Assembly: GCF_013408825.1 (NCBI RefSeq) | Contig: NZ_JACCBZ010000003.1 | Coordinates: forward strand, 558,001-622,000 | DNA: 64,000 bases | Reading direction: 5' to 3' | Source of the DNA: Mucilaginibacter tundrae | GTDB lineage: Bacteria; Bacteroidota; Bacteroidia; Sphingobacteriales; Sphingobacteriaceae | Shown here: positions 5,696 through 64,000 of the stretch, piece by piece | How the letters are laid out: every line of letters begins with the position of its first letter | Position numbering within the stretch: the stretch's first letter is position 1 | The notes under the pieces: model-generated | What the model saw: only the letters and a program-made list of their open reading frames with translations | Told to the model about the DNA's origin: nothing | Database searches by the model: none | Made by a program: the position numbers and the translations under genes

Positions 5696-6678
5696 AAAAA
5701 CGGGTTTTAATAACCGGTGCAAGTGGCTTTGTGGGTTATCATCTGATTGAAGAAGCTTTGCATAGTAACCTGGATGTATATGTCGCGGTGCGTAAAACCA
5801 GCAAGGTCGATCATCTTAAACATTTCAATATCACCTATACCTATCCCGACTTAGGCAACCTGATCACCCTAAAAAAGGAGTTAAAAGAAAAACAATACGA
5901 TTATATTATCCATGCCGCCGGTGTTACCACCGCCAGGACCGCCGACGAATACAACACTGTTAACGCCGAATACACATTTAACCTGGCAGCGGCGGCGAAA
6001 TCGACTGATATAAATTTAAAATCCTTCATATTGATCAGCAGCCTTGCAGCAGTGGGGCCGCTCAACACTTTATCGGGTATAATTAGTGAAGATACATTAC
6101 CAAATCCAATAACAGCTTATGGTAAAAGCAAACTTTTAGCAGAAGAAAAGCTAAAAAGCATTACTTCATTAAACTATACCATTCTAAGGCCTACCGCTAT
6201 ATATGGCCCCAGAGATAAAGACATATTTATCTTTTTTAAACAGTTAAAACTGGGAATTGAGCCTTATATAGGCAATACAGAGCAAAAGCTAAGCTTTGTT
6301 TACGTTAAGGATCTGGCGGCGGTAGCTATTAAAGCGCTCTATATCAGCAACCGGAATACCTATAATTTAAGTGATGGAAACTTTTATAGCCGCTATGAAT
6401 TAGCTACAATTGCTAAAAATGTTCTAAATTTGAAAACCGTAAAGTTTCATCTCCCTGTCAATTTTGTGAAATTAATCGCTTTGATATCAGAAAAAGTCAG
6501 TTCTTTGAGCAGCAAAGCAGCTGTACTCAATTCTGAAAAATTGCTGGAATTAATGGCCGTCAATTGGTCTTGTGAAATTGACAAAGCTAAATACGACCTC
6601 GGTTATTATCCCCTGTTTAACCTTGATGCCGGCTTAACTGAAACACTTAACTGGTACAAAACGAATAAATGGCTTTAG
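5692..6678 (+). CDS. NAD(P)-dependent epimerase/dehydratase-like reductase, candidate ketosphinganine/ketoceramide reductase (CerR-like)
   Basis: A 328-residue extended short-chain dehydrogenase. The Rossmann dinucleotide motif GASGFVG sits at residues 9-15 and the catalytic pair is Tyr143-Lys147 (TAYGKSK). ISSLAAVGP precedes it, supplying the Ser of the triad, and RPTAIYGPRDKD is the typical extended-SDR substrate loop. It overlaps the GNAT gene by 4 nt and lies directly after spt-GNAT, the arrangement expected for the enzyme that reduces the 3-keto group of the sphingoid base or ceramide. CerR of Caulobacter belongs to the same epimerase-like family. Function is inferred from operon context; a nucleotide-sugar epimerase cannot be excluded from motifs alone. 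Confidence 0.78.
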
Positions 6679-6708
6679 CTACAAATAAGTTAACATAAAA
6701 TAAAGTAA

Positions 6709-8031
6709 ATGAAAAGTAACATTCAACCTGCCAAAGGAAAGCTTGGAATATTAATACCAGGATTAGGCGCGGTAGCTACTACACTGATTGCTGGTGTTGA
6801 AGCTGTAAAAAAAGGTATATCACAACCTGTAGGCTCCCTAACTCAAATGGGAAACATTCGTTTAGGTAAGAGAACGGAAAACCGTAACCCAAAGATTAAA
6901 GAGTTTGTGCCTATTGCCGACCTTAATGATATTGTTTTTGGTGGATGGGATGTATACTCAGATAACGTATACGAGGCTGCTATGCATGCCAAGGTACTTG
7001 AAGAAAGCCTGCTAAATAAAGTAAAGGACGGATTAGAAGTAATTGTGCCGATGAAGGCCGCTTTTGATCAAAACTATGCTAAAAACCTTACTGCTACCCA
7101 CGTTAAAACGGGTACCCGTTATGAGCTTGCCCAACAGGTAATGCAGGATATTAAGGATTTCAAAGCGAAAAATGATTGCGACCGTATCGTATTGATCTGG
7201 TGCGGATCAACTGAAATATATTACGAAACCTCAGCAATTCACGAAACTGTTGAAGCTTTTGAACAAGCATTAGTAGATGATGATAAGCTAATATCACCAA
7301 GCATGATATACGCTTATGCAGCATTAAAAATGGGCATACCTTATGTAAACGGTGCTCCTAACTTAACCGTTGATACCCCTGCTTTAGTTGAACTTGCAAA
7401 ACGCACTAACACTCCAATTGCAGGTAAAGACTTTAAAACAGGCCAAACTTTAATGAAAACTATACTTGCGCCAGGTTTGGCAGCACGTTCATTAGGTGTT
7501 TCTGGCTGGTTCTCTACCAATATCCTGGGTAATCGCGATGGTTTAGTACTGGATGATCCGGATAATTTTAAAACAAAAGAAGTTTCAAAATTAGGTGTAT
7601 TAGAAGATATTCTTCAACCTGAAAGAAACCCTGAGTTATACGGTGATTTGTATCACAAAATACGTATCAACTACTATCCTCCACACGGTGATAATAAAGA
7701 AAGCTGGGACAACATTGATATTTTTGGCTGGTTAGGTTATAAAATGCAGATCAAGATCAATTTCCTTTGCCGCGACTCTATTTTAGCAGCGCCGATTGCA
7801 TTGGATTTGGCTTTATTTATTGATTTGGCTAAGAGAGCTGAAATGAGCGGTATTCAGGAATGGTTATCATTCTACTTAAAATCACCGCAAACAGCACCAG
7901 GCCTGCCTGCTGAAAATGATATTTTCAAGCAATTAATGAAACTACAAAACACTTTACGCCACATGATGGGCGAAGATTTGATCACTCACCTGGGTTTAGA
8001 TTATTACCAGGAATTGGTTGATACTTTATAG
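6709..8031 (+). CDS. ino1: myo-Inositol-1-phosphate synthase
   Basis: A 440-residue member of the Inositol-1-P synthase family. It converts glucose 6-phosphate to 1L-myo-inositol 1-phosphate with bound NAD. Seen: an N-terminal Rossmann region (LGILIPGLGAVATTLIAGVEAV), VIWCGSTEIYY, and the family block GVSGWFSTNILGNRDGLVLDDPDNFKTKEVSK. A central MQIKINFLCRDSILAAPIALDLALF stretch lies in the domain that carries the active-site lysines. It begins 30 bp after the reductase gene and ends 3 bp before the phosphatase gene. It supplies the head-group precursor for the CDP-alcohol phosphatidyltransferase downstream. Homologous to MIPS of the characterised Bacteroides thetaiotaomicron inositol-lipid cluster (BT_1522-BT_1526). 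Confidence 0.93.
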   Translation: MKSNIQPAKGKLGILIPGLGAVATTLIAGVEAVKKGISQPVGSLTQMGNIRLGKRTENRNPKIKEFVPIADLNDIVFGGWDVYSDNVYEAAMHAKVLEESLLNKVKDGLEVIVPMKAAFDQNYAKNLTATHVKTGTRYELAQQVMQDIKDFKAKNDCDRIVLIWCGSTEIYYETSAIHETVEAFEQALVDDDKLISPSMIYAYAALKMGIPYVNGAPNLTVDTPALVELAKRTNTPIAGKDFKTGQTLMKTILAPGLAARSLGVSGWFSTNILGNRDGLVLDDPDNFKTKEVSKLGVLEDILQPERNPELYGDLYHKIRINYYPPHGDNKESWDNIDIFGWLGYKMQIKINFLCRDSILAAPIALDLALFIDLAKRAEMSGIQEWLSFYLKSPQTAPGLPAENDIFKQLMKLQNTLRHMMGEDLITHLGLDYYQELVDTL

Positions 8032-8034
8032 TAA

Positions 8035-8490
8035 ATGTTGTTTTTTAAACTGAGTGCCACCAGCCTTGGCATAGGTTATATTGGCAAAGGCGCCGGAACA
8101 GTAGCTGCTGTTGCGTGTTGTATTTGCTGGTATTTCGCCTGGGTTGGTGGTTATCCACCCACTATATTATCTGTAATAATTACTTTGCTTATCACCATCT
8201 TAGGTGTTTGGGCAGGTAATAAAGTTGAGCCGCTTTGGGGTAAAGATCACCAACGAGTAGTGATTGATGAAGTTACAGGCATGTGTTTCAGTTTACTTTT
8301 TTTACCGGTAAATGTAAAATATGTGTTATGTGCATTAATACTTTTCCGGTTCTTCGATATCAAAAAGCCTCTTTTTATAAGGGAAATGGAACATTTCAAC
8401 GGAGGATGGGGCGTTATGGCCGATGATGTGCTCGCGGGTATTTATACTAACATATTACTACAAGCCGTTGTAGCATTTAAATTATTTTAA
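8035..8490 (+). CDS. PgpA-family membrane phosphatase, candidate phosphatidylinositol-phosphate phosphatase
   Basis: A 151-residue membrane protein with about four hydrophobic segments. PgpA signatures are present: IGYIGKGAGTVAA at the N-terminus, VIDEVTGM in the middle, and FRFFDIKKPLFIREMEHFNGGWGVMADDVLAG near the C-terminus, which carries the metal-binding DD pair. PgpA normally removes the phosphate of phosphatidylglycerophosphate. Here the gene is wedged between MIPS and GtrA, so it is more likely to act on phosphatidylinositol phosphate, as reported for the homologue in the B. theta inositol-lipid cluster. Starts 3 bp after MIPS; its stop shares one base with the next start (TAATG). Confidence 0.85.
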   Translation: MLFFKLSATSLGIGYIGKGAGTVAAVACCICWYFAWVGGYPPTILSVIITLLITILGVWAGNKVEPLWGKDHQRVVIDEVTGMCFSLLFLPVNVKYVLCALILFRFFDIKKPLFIREMEHFNGGWGVMADDVLAGIYTNILLQAVVAFKLF

Positions 8491-8864
8491 TGTCAACCAC
8501 TTTTATCAAGGCACAAGCCTCTTCAATTATTTCCACATTCTTCGATTTACTAATCACAGTAGTTTGCAAAGAGTTTTTAGGGTTTTGGTATGTTATTGCC
8601 AGCTTTACCGGCACTTTTGCCGGTGGCGCTATTAATTTCGCTTTGGGCAGGCGCTGGGTATTTGACAGTCGCGACAAAAAAGTACCTGTTCAATTAGTAA
8701 AATACTTGATAACATGGGGTGGCAATATGCTTTTAACCACCTTTGGCGTGTTTTTTGTAACACATTATTGCGGTATTAGTTACTTTATATCAAAAATAAT
8801 AGTAGCCATTATTGTAGGCATAGGGTATAACTACATGTTACAAAAGAAATTCGTATTTGCTTAA
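8490..8864 (+). CDS. GtrA family membrane protein
   Basis: A 124-residue protein with four predicted transmembrane helices and the GtrA hallmarks: FIKAQASSIISTFFDLLITVV in the first helix, GGAINFALGRRWVFDS in the middle, and GIGYNYMLQKKFVFA at the C-terminus. GtrA-like proteins help move lipid-linked sugars or related lipids across membranes, though the mechanism is poorly known. Here it overlaps the phosphatase gene by one base and sits inside an inositol-lipid operon, so a role in translocating an inositol lipid or its precursor is a fair guess, not shown by sequence. It is the last gene of the tightly coupled first block. Confidence 0.85.
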   Translation: MSTTFIKAQASSIISTFFDLLITVVCKEFLGFWYVIASFTGTFAGGAINFALGRRWVFDSRDKKVPVQLVKYLITWGGNMLLTTFGVFFVTHYCGISYFISKIIVAIIVGIGYNYMLQKKFVFA

Positions 8865-8991
8865 TCTACAAGCAGATAACATTAAAAAACAAAGTCCCAT
8901 AAATAGTGGTTCTCGTTTTTTGACCTTTAAACTACATTAACTACCAACTTATTGCTTTTCACACATAAAATTAATCAAACGATTAATTAAC

Positions 8992-9022
8992 TTTGCGGCA
9001 ACAGTACTCAATATTTGATTTG
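8992..9022 (+). promoter_or_regulatory. Candidate Bacteroidota promoter (TTTG-N19-TTGATTTG)
   Basis: TTTG at 8992-8995 and TTGATTTG at 9015-9022, separated by 19 bp, match the primary sigma-factor consensus of Bacteroidota (TTTG-N19/21-TAnnTTTG) with one mismatch. It lies about 165 bp upstream of the DUF5686 gene, in the only sizeable gap of the inositol-lipid locus. It probably starts a second transcription unit. Prediction only. Confidence 0.42.
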
Positions 9023-9185
9023 ATACTATAATATAAAACTTTGAGTTAAGTAACAACGTAACTAAAACATGCTCTTTAATAGCGTATTAACTTAACGAAA
9101 CGTTTATTTGCCAATGGATTGTTAATTATCACAAATAATCTCATTGGTAAAACAAAAACTGTTTTTGTTCACTTGCATAAAATAC

Positions 9186-11744
9186 ATGGATTATAAATAT
9201 TTACTAAAGAAGTTTTCATTATTAGTATTTGCGTTACTGCTTACCAACGCTTTGTTGGCGCAAACCACTACTGTTGTGAGTGGTACAGTAAACGATGCAA
9301 GCACTAAAAAGCCGTTATCCTATGTAACTGTTGTGTTTGCAGGTAGCTCTATAGGTGCGAATACTGATAGCCACGGAAAATTTAACATCAGCACCACACA
9401 AACCTTTGATCATATAAAAATATCATTTGTTGGCTATAAAGATGCCGTTTTACCTATAGTTGCAGGCCAAACACAGGTTGTAAACGTTAGGTTGTTTCCG
9501 CAAGCACAGCAATTGAGTACGGTGACGATAAAGGCTGGTAAAAAACCAAAATATCGTAACAAAGGTAACCCTGCTGTTGAGCTGATCCGTCAGGTTATTG
9601 ACCACAAGCCACAAAATCGTCCTACTGCATACGATTATGTACAGTATAAAGAATATGACAAGATGGTATTTTCTTTCGCTAACGTATCAAGTACGCTATC
9701 AGATAAAAAATTCTTCCATAAATATAAGTTCATTATTGATAACCGCGACAGTACATCTGTACCCGGTAAATCATTATTACCAGTATACCTCGACGAAAAG
9801 TTAGAAGATGTATATTATCGTAAATCGCCTTCAAAAACTAAAACTAATATTCTTGCCCAAAAGAAAGTTGACTTTGGCGCCGCCGTGGATGCAGAAGGTG
9901 TAAGTCAATATTTTAAACACATGTATGCTGATATTGATATTTATCAAAACAGCATATTTTTAATGACCAACAACTTCCTTAGCCCTATTGCTGCCAGCGG
10001 ACCAACGTTTTACAAATATTTTATTACAGATACCTTAGTTATTGACGGCAAAAAAGTGGTTGAATTAAGTTTTACCCCACGTAACACCACCGATTTATTA
10101 TTTATGGGTAAAATTTACATTACCCTCGATGGCAACTATGCAGTGCAAAAGGCAAGGTTATATGCCAATAAAAACATCAACCTTAACTTCGTAAAAGACT
10201 TAAATGTAGATCTTACTTTTGAGAAAAATCCTGATGGCCGTTACCATCTAAGTAAAAACAGCATGATTGCTGATTTTGGTTTCAATAAAAATAAAGATGG
10301 TGGCTTATACGGTACAAGGACAGTTACATTTAGCGATTACAAGGTAAATGCCCCCCTTCCGGATAGCGTTTATGCTGGCAACGAGGTTACTGAACTTGAT
10401 AATTCATCAACCCGGACGGATCAGTACTGGACTCAGAACCGCTTAGATACTCTTACTACTGCCGAGTCTAAAGTTTATAAAAACACTGACAGCTTAAGAA
10501 ACATGCCTTCATTTAAAAGGCTTACTGATATTGCAACTATATTATTAGCAGGCTATAAAGGCTTTGGCTGGTTTGAAGTTGGGCCAGCGAACACCTTTTA
10601 CAGTTTTAACCCTGTTGAAGGTTTAAGGTTGCGGTTAGGTGGCCGTACCACTCCTGAACTGAGTACAAGGTACTATTTTGAAACCTATGCAGCTTATGGG
10701 TTTAAGGATGAAAAATGGAAATACTTTTTAAGTGCAACCTATTCACTTAACGATAAATCGATCTATAAATTTCCGCAAAATTATATCCGGGCAAGTTATC
10801 AGAAAGATGTAACGATACCGGGCGAAGACTTACAATTCGTACAGGAGGACAACTTCTTGTTATCATTTAAACGTGGTAATAACGATAAATACTTATACAA
10901 CGATTTCTATCGGTTAAATTATGTACATGAGTTTGATAGTCACTTTTCTTATAACTTAACATTTACTAATCGTACGCAATCGCCTGCGGGTTCACTATCA
11001 TTTTTAACTGAACAGAATGGTAATACCACTAACATACAGGATTTAACTACTTCTGAAGCCAATTTACAATTCCGATATGCCCCGGGTGAACAATTTTATC
11101 AGGGCAAAATATATCGTATACCAATCCCTAATGCTTTCCCTGTATACGAACTCGATTTTACACAGGGATTTAAAGATGTGCTTAATAGCAGTTATTCATA
11201 TCAAAAACTACATCTACAAATTGACAAACGTTTTTATAACTCACAGTTTGGTTTTGCTGATGTAAGGGTTGAAGCCGCGCATATCTTCGGACAGGTACCT
11301 TATCCATTGTTAAATATTTTCCGGGCGAATCAAACATATGCGTATGACCTGTACTCTTATAACTTAATGAACTTTTTGGAGTTTGTTGGTGATCATTATG
11401 AGAGTATTAATATTGATCAGCACTTCCAGGGTTTCTTCTTCAACAAGATCCCATTGTTGAAGAAATTAAAATGGCGCGAGGTGGCATCATTTAAGGGAAT
11501 ATGGGGTGGTTTGAGCGATCAAAATAACCCTGCTTTACACTCTAATTTATACCAATACCCGCTTTATCCTGATGGAAGGCCAATTACTTACGCATTAGGA
11601 AGTACGCCATATATAGAAGCCAGTGTTGGTATTGAAAATATTTTTAAGTTTGTACGTGTTGACTTTGTTAGGCGATTCACTTATTTGGATAATCCTGATG
11701 TTGCCAAATACGGCGTACGTGTATTAGTTCAATTTGATTTTTAA
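9186..11744 (+). CDS. DUF5686 outer-membrane protein with CarboxypepD_reg-like N-terminal domain
   Basis: About 852 residues from the ATG at 9186 (MDYKYLLKKFSLLVFALLLTNALLAQ), which gives a clean signal peptide; the longer frame starts at a TTG (9144) and is less likely. An N-terminal carboxypeptidase-regulatory-like beta domain (VVSGTVNDASTKKPLSYVTVVF... DSHGKF) is followed by a DUF5686 region. The C-terminal half is rich in aromatic beta-strands and ends in VLVQFDF, as in outer-membrane barrels. Related proteins are common in Bacteroidota, function unknown. It sits between the GtrA gene and the phosphatidyltransferase gene, so a role in outer-membrane placement of inositol lipids is conceivable but not shown. 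Confidence 0.82.
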   Translation: MDYKYLLKKFSLLVFALLLTNALLAQTTTVVSGTVNDASTKKPLSYVTVVFAGSSIGANTDSHGKFNISTTQTFDHIKISFVGYKDAVLPIVAGQTQVVNVRLFPQAQQLSTVTIKAGKKPKYRNKGNPAVELIRQVIDHKPQNRPTAYDYVQYKEYDKMVFSFANVSSTLSDKKFFHKYKFIIDNRDSTSVPGKSLLPVYLDEKLEDVYYRKSPSKTKTNILAQKKVDFGAAVDAEGVSQYFKHMYADIDIYQNSIFLMTNNFLSPIAASGPTFYKYFITDTLVIDGKKVVELSFTPRNTTDLLFMGKIYITLDGNYAVQKARLYANKNINLNFVKDLNVDLTFEKNPDGRYHLSKNSMIADFGFNKNKDGGLYGTRTVTFSDYKVNAPLPDSVYAGNEVTELDNSSTRTDQYWTQNRLDTLTTAESKVYKNTDSLRNMPSFKRLTDIATILLAGYKGFGWFEVGPANTFYSFNPVEGLRLRLGGRTTPELSTRYYFETYAAYGFKDEKWKYFLSATYSLNDKSIYKFPQNYIRASYQKDVTIPGEDLQFVQEDNFLLSFKRGNNDKYLYNDFYRLNYVHEFDSHFSYNLTFTNRTQSPAGSLSFLTEQNGNTTNIQDLTTSEANLQFRYAPGEQFYQGKIYRIPIPNAFPVYELDFTQGFKDVLNSSYSYQKLHLQIDKRFYNSQFGFADVRVEAAHIFGQVPYPLLNIFRANQTYAYDLYSYNLMNFLEFVGDHYESINIDQHFQGFFFNKIPLLKKLKWREVASFKGIWGGLSDQNNPALHSNLYQYPLYPDGRPITYALGSTPYIEASVGIENIFKFVRVDFVRRFTYLDNPDVAKYGVRVLVQFDF

Positions 11745-13328: not shown

Positions 13329-14264
13329 ATGGGGGCTATTGATAATAGCGTAAAAATTAATTTCAAGTCGGTAACAATTGTTTCGCTTCTATCAGTTGCG
13401 TACCTTTTGCTATCTTCTTTTTTGATTGGATACAAATCCGATCAGCTTACATTGGTATTTATATTCAATATCATGTTTTACTTGTCGGTACCTACCCGCA
13501 AGTTTATATTGGGTTTTTCCATATTTATTTTTTACTGGGTGATTTTTGATTATATGAAGGCTATCCCTAATTATAATTACAACAAGGTACACATTGCTGA
13601 TCTTTATCACTTTGAAAAACACATCTTCGGTATCAATCTAAATGGCAAATTAGTTACCCCTAACGAATATCTTAGAATTAAAGGAACAACATTCTTAAAC
13701 ATAGTAACCGGCCTATTTTATTTATGCTGGATACCTGTACCATTGTCATTCGCAGCTTATTTATTTTTTAAGAATAAAAGGCAGTTCCTTTATTTCGCAT
13801 TCACATTTTTACTGGTTAACCTGTTGGGTTTTGTAGTATATTACCTATACCCCGCAGCACCACCGTGGTATATACAAACCTATGGTTTTACTTTCCATCC
13901 ATTAACGTTAGGCAGCACCGGCGGCTTATCTAAGTTTGACGCCTACTTTCATATCAATCTATTTAAATCCATTTACTCAAAGGGATCGAATGTATTCGCG
14001 GCTATGCCATCGTTACATTCCGCATATCCTGTTATAGTAGTTTATTATGGCTTTAAAAACCGTTTAAAATGGGCCAATGCTTGTTTTATTGTTGTGATGC
14101 TTGGCATATGGTTTACAGCAATATATGCAAGCCATCATTATGTATTGGATGTTATTGCAGGCATACTAACCGCAACCATTGGTATCAATCTTTTTAACTT
14201 TCTTGTAAAACGGGTTGGCTTTATAAAGCGCTTTATAGATAAATACGAAGCTATTATTCAATAA
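13329..14264 (+). CDS. PAP2 superfamily AUR1-like enzyme, candidate inositol phosphoceramide synthase
   Basis: A 311-residue polytopic membrane protein. It carries the AUR1/PAP2 active-site blocks: YPAAPPWY at 174-181, MPSLHSAYP with His230, and ASHHYVLD with His270 and Asp274. Fungal AUR1 transfers inositol phosphate from phosphatidylinositol to ceramide, and the B. theta cluster contains a PAP2 protein proposed for that step. Here the gene ends a locus that already holds genes for ceramide and phosphatidylinositol, so inositol phosphoceramide synthase is the natural assignment. The PAP2 family also includes plain lipid phosphatases, but the extra APPWY block and the size favour the AUR1 type. 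Confidence 0.85.
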   Translation: MGAIDNSVKINFKSVTIVSLLSVAYLLLSSFLIGYKSDQLTLVFIFNIMFYLSVPTRKFILGFSIFIFYWVIFDYMKAIPNYNYNKVHIADLYHFEKHIFGINLNGKLVTPNEYLRIKGTTFLNIVTGLFYLCWIPVPLSFAAYLFFKNKRQFLYFAFTFLLVNLLGFVVYYLYPAAPPWYIQTYGFTFHPLTLGSTGGLSKFDAYFHINLFKSIYSKGSNVFAAMPSLHSAYPVIVVYYGFKNRLKWANACFIVVMLGIWFTAIYASHHYVLDVIAGILTATIGINLFNFLVKRVGFIKRFIDKYEAIIQ

Positions 14265-14474
14265 TTAATGGTCGTAGTACTTAGTGTACTAATTACTGTA
14301 CTATTACATTCTAATCAATATTGACTTGTTTATTCACACTGAATTAGTTTTCCACATTTTCGCTTGGCTAATAGCAATTTAACCTATCCTTGCTTCATTA
14401 TATACCGCTGGTTTAATAATGCATTAAACGGGCATGCTATTTGAATATAGTTATATATTCAAAGGCTAATTTTT

Positions 14475-15298
14475 ATGAAGATACTATTTACAATTTCAGT
14501 TTTCATGCTCTTAGGCATTGCGAAACTATCAGCAGCTCCGGTTGATCCTGATAGCCTGAAACAACAAGTTACTGTAGCCAGCGACTCATTAAAAGCGCCA
14601 TTGTATACTCAAATTGCTGGCACCTATCTTAACTATGATACAATAACCAGTAAAAGAAAAAGATATATTTATCAGGAAAACGCAATTGCTTATACTTTGC
14701 AAGCCATTCATTATTACTCAAGATATAACGATACCACCGGATTACGCTTAAGTTTTGATAACCTGGCTAAGGTATACCGGTCAGAAAAGAAATTTAGTCA
14801 GGCCAAATGGTTCATCTTACAGTCAAACACGTTATCACGTGCTAAAAATGATGTACCGAACATCATATCTTCGTTGTTAGAATTAGCGTTGATCAAAACA
14901 GATATTAAGGATTATAAGCTTGCAATGCGTGATTTGAATGAGGCATTAACATTATCATCCGCAAACCATTTCCCTAAAACAGAAGCTGATGTACAAATGG
15001 GTTATGTTACGCTTTATAATAACATGAAGTTGTACACTAAAGCCGATATTGCCTTAAAAAGACATGACGCTATAAACGATAGTATCCTACATAGTCAGGA
15101 TGTAAAAGTGGCCGTAGCTACTGATTCTATTCAGCGCAAAAAAAAAGTATATCTAACCAGCACCAAGCGGCTTTACAAAGCAAACTCTTCCAGGAGAATA
15201 GCCTTGTTATAATTTTAATAATTGTTATTGCGTTACTAAGCATTACTATACTTTTCTACAAACGCCGCCGCCGTAAACTTCGCAGGCATCAAAATTAA
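14475..15298 (+). CDS. Secreted/anchored TPR protein split by a -1 frameshift at an A9 run
   Basis: The zero frame gives a 245-residue protein ending at 15212: signal peptide (MKILFTISVFMLLGIAKLSAAP), then TPR-like helices (about 60-200). After the run of nine A at 15138-15146 (codons 222-224, KKK), a -1 shift opens a frame to a TAA at 15296-15298. That frame encodes SISNQHQAALQSKLFQENSL, a hydrophobic helix (VIILIIVIALLSITILF) and a basic tail (YKRRRRKLRRHQN). A TM helix plus stop-transfer tail is exactly what TPR proteins of this family have at the end, while the zero-frame tail is unconvincing. The 274-residue product would need slippage, or the reference has lost one A. No kinase or HTH domain follows. 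Function unknown. Confidence 0.65.
15138..15146 (+). repeat. A9 homopolymer at the frameshift point
   Basis: Nine consecutive A residues after CGC inside the TPR gene. Ten As would join the N-terminal TPR part to the membrane-anchor frame; eight As would end at a TAA a few codons later. Such tracts allow polymerase or ribosome slippage and are also common sequencing-error sites. Confidence 0.7.
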
Positions 15299-15905: not shown

Positions 15906-16126
15906 CTGGCTTTCGGTCCGCGTTTGTAAATGATCAGCCCATTTAAAAAATTACGCAATATCTGGTCGCCGCAAGGCTTAAAATTCGGATGATCTTCCTT
16001 GCGAAAAATTGCCCCCAGTTCGGTTTTAGTTATTCTAAAATCTGCTAATTGCAGCACTTCAATAATGTCATCATCGGTAAACTTTAGGGCAACCCTAAGT
16101 TTTTTCATAATATCATTGTTGCTCAT
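15902..16126 (-). CDS. DUF1456 family protein, single-repeat form
   Basis: A 74-residue protein matching one DUF1456 (YehS) repeat: SNNDIMKKLRVALKFTDDDIIEVLQLADFRITKTELGAIFRKEDHPNFKPCGDQILRNFLNGLIIYKRG. E. coli YehS has two such repeats (about 156 aa), so this is a half-length version; nothing suggests truncation, since start and stop are clean. Function unknown. It lies 8 bp downstream of the DEAD-box helicase gene on the same strand and is probably co-transcribed, hinting at an RNA-related role. Confidence 0.8.
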   Translation of the reverse strand: MSNNDIMKKLRVALKFTDDDIIEVLQLADFRITKTELGAIFRKEDHPNFKPCGDQILRNFLNGLIIYKRGPKAS

Positions 16127-60727: not shown

Positions 60728-62650
60728 CTATCGGTTGATGCTAAATTCTTTAAATTGCCTTAAAAAACAAATGGTGTATATAGCTTTAGGTATATGCAGC
60801 ATGGCCAGTTGGTTTTTAAATTTATCTGTTTCATTATCAGCAATGGGTAAGTTAGCATATAACTTCATTTTTTCTACATCAACAACTTCACGCACAGGGT
60901 CGTTGCTTTTTATACTGTCAAAAAATCCCTTTGTCTGGCCTACCTGCGAATTATAGCGGCGTAAATAATCAGGCGAAAAAGGGGATTTAGTGTTGCGCCA
61001 CTGTATTTCGGGCGGTAAGATACCGTCAAGGCCTATGCGTACCATGCTACGCTTATAACCATTTCGTATTTTGAAATGTGAGGGGGTATTAAGACAAAAC
61101 TCCAATAGCCTTTTATCGCTAAATGGATACCTGAATTCGGCAGGACCCTGTATTGTATTTTCGATCCCTTTGTCATGCCGACCTTTAATATTGACAAGCT
61201 GATTTTCACGCTGATCAGGAGTTGTTTTGAAAATATCAATGTGTTTATCACGTTTCAAAGCGGTGGCCCTTTCCCTAAGCTCATTTGCAAATTCGGGCTT
61301 GAAAAAATTGTAGCCGTTGATATTAATATCCACTTTATCGCGCTCCCTGTATAGGACTTTCAAAAAGTCCGGCGCAAAAGGCTTAATTACCTGCGATCGT
61401 AATTGGAGAGCAATACTGTCTCCAACAACAGTCTTCCTGGCATTTAACTCTTTCCATAATAGTTGCCATTTGAATTTGCTAAATAACTCCGCATAAAATC
61501 CATCGCCATAATTGGTGGCACTTAACTCGCCCAATAAACCATCCAGGATAACCCTTGAGTTTAAGCCTGCTGCTTTTTCATAAAAATCCCTAACCAGGTA
61601 ATGCCGTGAAGAAATACTGGGAGAAGATAAATTACTCAATTTATCCATATAGCTTAAAAAGCCTTTATCCTGCGGCGTCGAATAGTGGATGGTTACATTA
61701 GGGAAAGATTTGAAAAGATCAATATAATAACGCTCGTCATTGAAAACGAGGTCATTTTCATCGGGCAAAACAACTGAAAAAACATGCAACTCCTTATTTT
61801 GCTTCTCCAATATTTTCGCAGCAACGCTCACTATCGAAGAGGAATCCAATCCGCCGCTCAGCAACGCGGTTACGGGGAACCCGCTTCTGAGTCGGCATGA
61901 AACCGATTCAAAGAAAACCTCTCGAAAAGCTTTCCTGTATTCTTCATCGTTTTTAAAATTGAGTTCTTCGCCTAATTCGGGCTGCCAGTACCTGCTAGTT
62001 TTTACGCCATTTGCACCTGCAGTAAGTATCGTTGCGGGCAACAACTGGTAAATATTTGTAAACCAGCTTTCCTCTTGCGCCACGCGATACAGATCCGAAT
62101 CAACCAGCTTGGCAAGCCTGTCATAATTTGGTGTAGTTTTAATACCCGGAATGGTTTTTATAGCTTGTATATCAGATGAAAAAATTATTTTTTGCCCATC
62201 GTTGTAATAAAATAATGTACCATTGCCTATATGGTCATTACAACAAAACAGCTCGCGCTTTTGCTGATCCCAAATGGTGAAAACATAATCGCCGAGTAAA
62301 TGGTACACACAGTTATTCTGCCATCGAATGTAGGCGGCCAGTATAAGTTGGGCATCGCCCATTATGGCACGTACAGTATGCGGAATTGCCAGTTTTGCGA
62401 AAAGTTCATCCCGGTTATCCAAACGGATATTGCCGGCAATTGTCATTCCTGATTCGGCGCAATATAGGGGCAATAGCTCATCATTTGATTCGGGTGTAAC
62501 ATGATAGCTGGCTTGAATGAAGGCAATGTGGGAATCATGCCAGCGATGCAGAATATCATGAGGGCTGTCTATACCCGACTGTAGTGCTGCAAGATCATTT
62601 TCACGATCATACGCGGTAGAAGTGGTTAGTATTCCGGAAAAAACTGTCAA
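60728..62650 (-). CDS. AsnB-like lasso peptide macrolactam synthetase (lasso cyclase)
   Basis: A 640-residue asparagine-synthetase homologue. The frame opens with TTG at 62650 immediately after an in-frame stop, and no later ATG would keep the N-terminal domain, so TTG is the start. The N-terminal glutaminase-like domain (TVFSGILTT...) lacks the catalytic Cys2 and so cannot hydrolyse glutamine. The C-terminal domain keeps the PP-loop SGGLDSSS near residue 263 for ATP binding. This is the pattern of lasso cyclases, which adenylate an Asp/Glu side chain and let the core N-terminus attack it to close the macrolactam ring. The linked PqqD, transglutaminase-like and YxxP-leader precursor genes upstream make the assignment firm. 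Confidence 0.9.
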   Translation of the reverse strand: MTVFSGILTTSTAYDRENDLAALQSGIDSPHDILHRWHDSHIAFIQASYHVTPESNDELLPLYCAESGMTIAGNIRLDNRDELFAKLAIPHTVRAIMGDAQLILAAYIRWQNNCVYHLLGDYVFTIWDQQKRELFCCNDHIGNGTLFYYNDGQKIIFSSDIQAIKTIPGIKTTPNYDRLAKLVDSDLYRVAQEESWFTNIYQLLPATILTAGANGVKTSRYWQPELGEELNFKNDEEYRKAFREVFFESVSCRLRSGFPVTALLSGGLDSSSIVSVAAKILEKQNKELHVFSVVLPDENDLVFNDERYYIDLFKSFPNVTIHYSTPQDKGFLSYMDKLSNLSSPSISSRHYLVRDFYEKAAGLNSRVILDGLLGELSATNYGDGFYAELFSKFKWQLLWKELNARKTVVGDSIALQLRSQVIKPFAPDFLKVLYRERDKVDININGYNFFKPEFANELRERATALKRDKHIDIFKTTPDQRENQLVNIKGRHDKGIENTIQGPAEFRYPFSDKRLLEFCLNTPSHFKIRNGYKRSMVRIGLDGILPPEIQWRNTKSPFSPDYLRRYNSQVGQTKGFFDSIKSNDPVREVVDVEKMKLYANLPIADNETDKFKNQLAMLHIPKAIYTICFLRQFKEFSINR

Positions 62651-62730
62651 TTATAAATATTTAGATCTCACAATACAGAGTTGTATTTTAGTTCTGTTAT
62701 TTTGCACTGGTTTCTGCTTACATTGAACCA

Positions 62731-62904
62731 TCAACTTCCGGCAGCATCATCAGTTTCCCCACCGTCCGAGCCACCGGATCCGGTGGCTTTTACCAGATCA
62801 TTAATGTTGCCATACACTTTTATTGAGGGTGTGCTGTAAATTTTTTTAGCGGTGTGTTCTGCCGGGATATCTGAAACCTGCATTTTTGGTTCGTTTATGT
62901 TCAT
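62731..62904 (-). CDS. Lasso peptide precursor (57 aa)
   Basis: ATG at 62904, TGA at 62731-62733. The leader (MNINEPKMQVSDIPAEH..., then IYSTPSIKVYGNINDLVKAT) carries the RRE-binding pattern Y23-x2-P26-x-I28-x3-G32 typical of lasso leaders. The core is very acidic and small-residue-rich: ATGSGGSDGGETDDAAGS (40-57) with a C-terminal Ser. Three cleavage registers are possible. Counting from G32, Val38 takes the usual Thr(-2) place and the ring would be Ala40-Asp47 (8 residues). Taking Thr41 as -2, the ring is Ser43-Glu50 (8 residues). Starting at Gly42, the ring is Gly42-Glu50 (9 residues). It lies between the B2 and cyclase genes. No bulky plug residue is present. Confidence 0.85.
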   Translation of the reverse strand: MNINEPKMQVSDIPAEHTAKKIYSTPSIKVYGNINDLVKATGSGGSDGGETDDAAGS

Positions 62905-62955
62905 AACTTTGTTTGTTTATATTTAGTTATTCTATCAATCCGTTTGAATCTTTAT

Positions 62956-63383
62956 TTATAAAATAGCTGTTTCAAAAGCGATGTAATTTTTATTTATACT
63001 CATATCTTTCGTAAAAGCTATTCCATTGTATTCCAGCCATGAGTGCGCGGCAAGTTTTTCATTCTGCTTTTTCATGCCAAATTTAAGTTGTACATATATC
63101 CCTCGTCTTTTCATCAACCACCAGTGTGCCGTAGATATAGCAAGACAATTGGTATAAGGGCAAAACAGTAGGAAAACTCTACTGATCTGCCATAGCTACT
63201 TGTGTCAAATAACTTGCTCCGGGTTTGAATTTTACGCTCAAAAACAGACAATAACCTTATGGTATTATTGAATCCCCCCAATTTAATGCAAACTCTGAGA
63301 AACACAGCCAGAAGCAAAGCGCTAAAAGCAAAAAACTTCTCTCCGGCAGGCAAACGCTCAGGCAGTATCATGCGTTTCTTCAT
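62956..63383 (-). pseudogene. Lasso leader peptidase B2 (transglutaminase-like), reading frame broken
   Basis: The N-terminal frame starts at ATG 63383 (MKKRMILPERLPAGEKFFAF) and by itself ends at 63114. The catalytic half is in the -1 frame, from about 63192 to a TAA at 62956-62958. It reads WQISRVFLLFCPYTNCLAIS, then HWWLMKRRGIYVQLKFGMKK and NEKLAAHSWLEYNGIAFTKD. Cys (codon at 63147, NCLA), His (63045, AAHSW) and Asp (63006) form the expected triad of B2 peptidases. Joined, the protein is about 142 residues, the normal B2 length. The shift falls near 63193-63200, with no obvious homopolymer. Either a lost base has inactivated the gene, or there is a sequence error or an unusual frameshift. 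Its start overlaps the PqqD gene stop by 4 nt. Confidence 0.82.
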
Positions 63384-63664
63384 CTTTGCAAAGTAAGCAG
63401 TTGATAGTTTTCTAATGTTTTTAGCAGGGAATTCAAATCCCTCTCCAACGTTTCTTTATCAATATCATATTCAGCCATAAACCTATCTACCGCGGCAGGA
63501 ATGTTTAATCCGTCAGCAAATAATTGCCAAAACATGGCGGCAACGCTATCAAGACCAAAATACAGTTCTGTTTCTGTGTTGAGCAGTACATATTCTTCAC
63601 CAAGGTTCTGAAAAAGTACATTATTTGAAATATTTACCCCGGCAGTAAGCGCTGACTCTGTCAT
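63380..63664 (-). CDS. PqqD-like RiPP recognition element (lasso B1)
   Basis: A 94-residue stand-alone PqqD-family protein. NNVLFQNLGEEYVLLNTETELYFGLDSVAAMFWQLF is the typical RRE winged-helix start, and the C-terminal helices end with LERDLNSLLKTLENYQLL. In lasso systems this protein binds the precursor leader through its YxxP region and presents it to the B2 peptidase. It is the first gene of the cluster seen here and overlaps the B2 start by 4 nt (ATGA). Confidence 0.92.
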   Translation of the reverse strand: MTESALTAGVNISNNVLFQNLGEEYVLLNTETELYFGLDSVAAMFWQLFADGLNIPAAVDRFMAEYDIDKETLERDLNSLLKTLENYQLLTLQR

Positions 63665-63783: not shown

Positions 63784-64000
63784 TTATTTACATATGCTTC
63801 CTCCAATAACGCTACCATGGCCTATCATTGTTTTTCCGCCTAATATTGTGCTTCGGGCATAAATAGTTACATTATCCTCTACCGTTGGATACCTTTTAAC
63901 GTCAGATAAACCTTTGCTTACCTGGGCAGTTCCTAACGCTACACCTTACTAAATACAAACATTTTTGCCGATAACGATTGTGGCACCAATCGCGATATCG
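63784..64000 (-). pseudogene. Serine O-acetyltransferase remnant (hexapeptide-repeat C-terminus)
   Basis: Minus-strand frame entering from the window edge. Translation gives DIAIGATIVIGKNVCI, two consecutive stops (TAG 63949-63951, TAA 63946-63948), then GVALGTAQVSKGLSDVKRYP, TVEDNVTIYARSTILGGKTM and IGHGSVIGGSICK, ending at TAA 63784-63786. These are left-handed beta-helix hexapeptide repeats of CysE/EpsC-type serine acetyltransferases. The two stops sit where the family has YQ in 'IYQGVTLG', and the usual ending after IGGN is missing. So it is a broken gene. It lies upstream of the lasso genes on the same strand. Confidence 0.75.

Follow-up and report, generated by a model that had tools for sequence, protein, structure and literature searches.

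A minimal lasso-peptide locus with a frame-broken leader-peptidase gene in Mucilaginibacter tundrae

The window analysed in this study (a 64,000-nucleotide stretch, G000:C3:558001-622000, of a 4.83-Mb genome assembled in 24 contigs) contains what is, judged by its sequence, a genuine minimal lasso-peptide locus with the gene order B1-B2-A-C and a predictable product. The gene for the leader peptidase, B2, is broken, and this feature, touched on only in passing in the initial annotation, is the main functional fact of the locus. We consider it quite probable that the B2 protease was lost recently from an otherwise preserved minimal locus, which is probably silent or dependent on help from elsewhere in the genome.

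Results

Gene content of the locus

The four genes lie on the minus strand and follow each other from high to low coordinate:

B1, 63380..63664 (-): stand-alone PqqD-like leader-binding protein (RRE), 94 aa, intact; binding is predicted
B2, 62956..63383 (-): transglutaminase-like leader peptidase, with a frame change near 63160-63170
A, 62731..62904 (-): 57-aa precursor; predicted leader 1-39, core 40-57 (ATGSGGSDGGETDDAAGS) and predicted ring Ala40-Asp47
C, 60728..62650 (-): asparagine-synthetase-like lasso cyclase, 640 aa, intact

The original interpretation as a lasso cluster is borne out by a PqqD-like B1, a B2 family match, a lasso-cyclase-like C and a conserved precursor. The order, strand, coordinates and gene content of the B1-B2-A-C set also stand; since B2 is split over two frames, however, the description of the set as complete for the three biosynthetic proteins holds for gene content only.

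B1 matches the Pfam PqqD family (E=5.8e-15) and the NCBIfam model lasso_PqqD (E=2.8e-10; 40 bits versus a cut-off of 80), and among solved structures its top match is TbiB1 (E=3.1e-15), with TfuB1 also present among the PDB matches. The cyclase carries the Pfam Asn_synthase and GATase domains, as well as the motif SGGLDSS, invariant in an alignment of five cyclases (A1), which places it with the asparagine-synthetase-like cyclases; its best NCBIfam model is lass_lactam_cya (E=7.6e-116; 388 bits versus a cut-off of 525).

A tree built from 39 cyclases places the window protein with the nearest metagenomic cyclases, P0002-P0008 (eight rows, support 100/100), P0002 and P0003 being its closest relatives, apart from the clade of tailored Mucilaginibacter clusters and far from the cyclases encoded on contig C11 of the same genome. 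The protein search behind these relatives scored the 8000 candidates with the most shared words, and the best 120 of 143 matches were listed. With P0004 as outgroup, the window cyclase has 39 differences of its own versus 33 for P0002, and likewise for P0003 (p=0.56); with P0004 and P0005 together the counts are 23 versus 18 and 26 versus 18 (p=0.53 and 0.29). In each comparison the window protein has the larger count, but never significantly so, and at 52 near-invariant columns it shows no departure.

Such cyclases are rare. Matches at 1e-138 or better were found in five of the 149 same-genus genomes (nine at 1e-50), in 4/399 genomes of a family-level draw at 1e-70 (all of this genus), in 5/400 of an order-level draw at 1e-90, and in 1/395 of a class-level draw at 1e-100, the single match being the genome itself. 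A first contig scan of genomes with the window cyclase as query returned no relatives.

Upstream of B1, also on the minus strand, a stretch running from window positions 63785-64000 to about position 16050 of the flanking segment L006 resembles, by eye, the end of a serine acetyltransferase gene and has an internal stop. The flanking segment L007, outside the window, carries a CBASS-like operon (6429-10012, minus strand) encoding a nucleotidyltransferase, an E2-like protein, a TIR-STING effector and an ion-channel protein, and a ShosA-like gene (13987-14943).

The B2 frame break

The B2 coding sequence consists of a 5' ORF of 89 aa (63383-63114) and a 3' ORF of 53 aa starting from 63117. The latter matches Pfam Transglut_core3 (E=9.4e-9) and by itself scores 30.1 bits against NCBIfam lasso_biosyn_B2, under the cut-off of 33, while B2 translated with the stops read through reaches 47.1 bits. 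Comparison with an intact 142-aa homologue, P0124, locates the switch: the 5' part is identical at 50 of 75 positions, up to P0124 residue 75, and the 3' part, in another frame, at 57 of 69, from P0124 residue 74. The change of frame thus falls near window positions 63160-63170, just before an Asn-Cys-Leu segment whose Cys we take to be the catalytic one. The gene is recognisable as that of a lasso leader peptidase, but it is split.

A search of a large protein collection with the 89-aa 5' ORF (E up to 1) gave two relatives. One is P0124, 67% identical to this ORF; the other, P0123, is the same truncated 89-aa B2 with one substitution, i.e. a second allele (known as protein only), and it stands for six member sequences, possibly including that of the window itself. 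P0123 and the precursor allele P0121 agree in the length of their longest contig (5342 bases), as do P0124 and the cyclase P0003 (3038 bases), from which we infer that each pair may share one contig. The recurrence of the truncated B2 in a second allele makes an assembly error an unlikely cause of the break, an error common to both being conceivable. Within the genus, 18 B2 matches were found at 1e-6 in 15 of the 149 genomes, and internal stops occur in the window copy only. A search of the genome itself gave three B2 matches: the window copy and two intact genes on C11.

Precursor, cleavage register and core

By profile model alone the assignment of the precursor would be weak, since its score against NF033528 lasso_cyano (E=3.5e-4) is 20.5 bits versus a cut-off of 33. 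Its identity is better supported by comparison: a gapless leader motif and the core residues Asp8-Gly9, both present in seven relatives, together with conserved alleles, argue for a lasso precursor more strongly than the model score. The motif reads Y23xxP26xI28xxxG32 (YSTPSI, with Ile replacing the Leu of the usual YxxPxL). When the precursor's own residues were shuffled 200000 times, the pattern [YFW]..P.[LIVM]...G arose in 404 cases; it occurs in five of the 424 window ORFs of 30-100 aa, the precursor included.

The seven relatives come from six clusters, and two of them are a near-copy pair in L046. The clusters were reached through cyclase homologues in four same-genus genomes (39-42% identity) and, by a scan of named genomes, in L046 (46%) and L050 (37%); a precursor search in 100 same-genus genomes, in which 11 of 18 rows lay in frames of at least 446 residues and were set aside, gave the precursors of G096, G008 and G040 and that on the genome's own contig C5. 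All precursors were anchored on YxxPx[LI]xxxG and aligned without gaps.

The cleavage register had been left open in the initial annotation because Val38 stands where Thr is usual and Thr41 follows three residues later. The alignment closes this question: Asp8 recurs in every one of the relatives aligned without gaps, and L050 has Thr exactly at the place of Val38, which sets the predicted cut at Lys39|Ala40 with Val at -2, as in the other six relatives. A core starting after Thr41 is rejected on the evidence of the same relatives and of the Thr(-2) of L050. The predicted ring would then join Ala1 and Asp8, so that among the several Asp/Glu residues once regarded as candidates for ring closure Asp8, present in all eight aligned precursors, is now favoured. 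Under independence the chance of this agreement would be 4.7e-8, a value not to be taken literally because the sequences are related and L046 contributes two near-copies; for the window precursor alone an acidic residue at core positions 7-9 is expected with a probability of 0.55, and only the comparison counts.

Several properties of the precursor that had been noted at the outset were confirmed. It is very acidic, with a computed charge of -4.2 at pH 7 versus -0.2 to -3.2 in the seven relatives, and its core is devoid of F, W, Y, H and C, i.e. of plug residues and of a disulfide. The cores of all seven relatives have a tail Cys, and five have a tail aromatic residue (Phe in G008, Tyr in G040 and Trp in G136, G096 and L050); the pair of L046 copies has none. 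Conservation in homologous clusters, proposed as a check, was found in all seven relatives for the leader motif and Asp8-Gly9. Two further alleles, likewise known as proteins only, keep the 57-residue frame, P0121 with one change (in the core) and P0122 with two (in the leader), so that the 18-residue core differs at one position across them; the C-terminal Ser57 is present in the window and in both alleles. The computed monoisotopic mass of the core minus water is 1492.555.

Tailoring genes and other lasso loci

The stretches around the related clusters encode 2OG-Fe(II)-oxygenase-like, HPr-kinase-like and JmjC proteins, and in some cases a PhyH-like protein, a sulfotransferase or a Trp halogenase (Pfam was run on the protein set of L040, and the other stretches were matched to L040 proteins by tblastn). 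Searches at 1e-4 with the tailoring-type proteins of L040 and L008 as queries gave no hit in the window, nor in L006 and L007, which reach 18 kb past it. The paeninodin-like phosphorylation at this locus that the C-terminal Ser had suggested is not upheld, as tblastn (1e-4) showed no HPr-kinase-like match in the window and these 18 kb. Phosphorylation of the terminal Ser could come only from elsewhere, for instance from the kinase-like genes on C11. By comparison, among 16 other Mucilaginibacter lasso stretches with B2, 15 have an HPr-kinase-like match (weak in L081 and L082, with 67 and 74 bits), and the only one without it, L077, stops at a contig end just past B2. Nor was an ABC transporter, another of the neighbours proposed for a search, found among nine flank and nine window proteins (Pfam, 1e-5).

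Trp halogenase-like genes lie beside the lasso clusters of L040 (12131-14344, plus strand), L038 (3182-5410, minus strand) and L050 (15239-16777, minus strand), exactly the three of six related clusters with a tail-Trp core. None was found where the core has Phe (L037), Tyr (L039, a short contig) or no aromatic residue (L046); at L037 5185-5259 a residual 25-residue halogenase match of 84% identity is left. This tracking of tail Trp suggests the existence of halogenated lasso peptides in Bacteroidota; a known halogenated case is chlorolassin of Lentzea (PMC12518702).

Two further lasso clusters reside in the same genome, on C11 (L008, G000:C11:78000-97900), with kinase-like, sulfotransferase-like and oxygenase-like genes and with precursors at 8280-8462 (+) and 13757-13900 (-), in both of which the leader Tyr is replaced by Trp. 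This contig carries two intact B2 genes, two B1 matches and three HPr-kinase-like matches. Predicted cores whose tail is free of F, W and Y (limits set by eye) are also found in L008 13757-13900, L042, L043 10920-11060 and L080; an aromatic residue in the tail region is present in L041, L008 8280-8462, L081, L082 and the second L043 core, which speaks against plug-less cores as a rule of the genus. The motif recovered no precursor in L044, L076, L077, L078 and L079, and these are excluded from statements on cores.

Elsewhere, an orphan lasso-precursor-like ORF in L045 (8989-9156, plus strand) resembles one of the C11 precursors, the 19-kb stretch around it giving no match to B1, B2 or C, and L053 (7169-9767, plus strand), on a contig labelled as a Methanobacteriaceae archaeon, has B1-, B2- and C-like lasso genes, which could be a matter of binning.

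Discussion

By analogy with the known class, B1 would bind the leader through YxxPxI...G, B2 would cut after Lys39, and C would join the freed amino group of Ala1 to Asp8, giving an 8-residue ring and a 10-residue tail, GGETDDAAGS. With the frame of B2 broken, as it is in this lineage, the locus is unable to remove the leader by itself, and silence is its most likely state. Pseudomycoidin reportedly forms without a leader and leader peptidase. The loss of B2 appears to be recent, because its 3' part still shares 57 of 69 residues with P0124 and because the cyclase has not changed significantly more than its relatives.

Since C, B1 and A are intact, the locus might alternatively still be in use and obtain its B2 from another source. 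In that case a C11 B2 would remove the leader in trans, with possible phosphorylation of the terminal Ser by a kinase from C11. The intact B2 genes, the B1 matches and the HPr-kinase-like matches of C11 and the lack of a significant rate excess in the window cyclase are consistent with this; cross-recognition is nevertheless doubtful, since the C11 precursors have Trp for Tyr and the C11 cyclases are distant, and we regard such service as rather unlikely. We give even less credence to an extension of this idea, according to which the window belongs to a class of short, Gly/Ser/Asp-rich Mucilaginibacter lasso peptides without an aromatic plug, where a charged group on the terminal Ser would replace the plug and the window locus, having given up tailoring genes and a protease of its own, would live off C11 enzymes. 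The putative members (the window, one cluster on C11, L042, one in L043, and L080) end in Ser, and HPr-kinase-like genes adjoin all of them but the window.

Taking into account that the tail Cys and aromatic residue are absent, that nearby tailoring-gene matches are lacking, that B2 is broken and that a remnant resembling a broken serine acetyltransferase gene (by eye) adjoins, the whole locus might be a decaying relic whose plug-less acidic core results from drift rather than selection. Such decay seems improbable given a single core change in 18 residues across two other alleles, a cyclase that evolves no significantly faster than its relatives, and aromatic-free cores in other Mucilaginibacter clusters. 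Ribosomal frameshifting across the break could yield some active B2, and the break is indeed common to two alleles, with both halves open and conserved and the other three genes intact; but neither P0124 nor any of the remaining 17 of the 18 B2 matches in the genus has an internal stop, and a classical slippery heptamer was not seen (by eye), which leaves this explanation with very little probability. Recent loss of B2 from a minimal locus thus remains our preferred reading.

Leaders with Ile/Val(-2) are an already published, known type. In the study describing BsfA of Bradymonas, Ile(-2) was validated experimentally and Ile/Val(-2) was noted in putative precursors of Acidobacteriaceae and Sphingomonadales, every Ile/Val(-2) cluster reported there encoding a kinase or phosphotransferase (PMC10368454). 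The window locus shares with BsfA the split B1/B2 pair, the YxxPxL-type leader, a hydrophobic residue at -2 and a ring predicted at Asp8, whereas it differs from these clusters in its broken B2 and in having no nearby HPr-kinase-like match (PMC10368454). With paeninodin and pseudomycoidin, as described, it has in common the C-terminal Ser and the split B1/B2 pair; unlike these systems, it shows neither an HPr-kinase-like match nor, in the 18 scanned neighbours, an ABC transporter, and its core has no aromatic residue (PMC8498205, PMC9266682). Bulky plugs or disulfides are the stabilisers usually described for lasso peptides (PMC8498205). The tailored clusters L037-L040 (Mucilaginibacter), L046 and L050 share a homologous cyclase (37-46%), B1, B2, precursor and register, but add 2OG oxygenase-like, HPr-kinase-like and JmjC genes, in some cases a Trp halogenase, and their cores have Cys and mostly a tail aromatic residue. 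In the literature searched, lasso peptides and Mucilaginibacter occurred together in a validation list of names and nowhere else.

Our analysis adds a Bacteroidota Val(-2) lasso locus without a nearby kinase-like gene, unlike all clusters of the Ile(-2) study as reported. Plug residues, a working protease frame and nearby tailoring-gene matches are all missing from this locus, in which the cyclase is still conserved. If its leader were indeed removed in trans, the genome of M. tundrae would provide a natural test of the exchangeability of lasso proteases within one cell.
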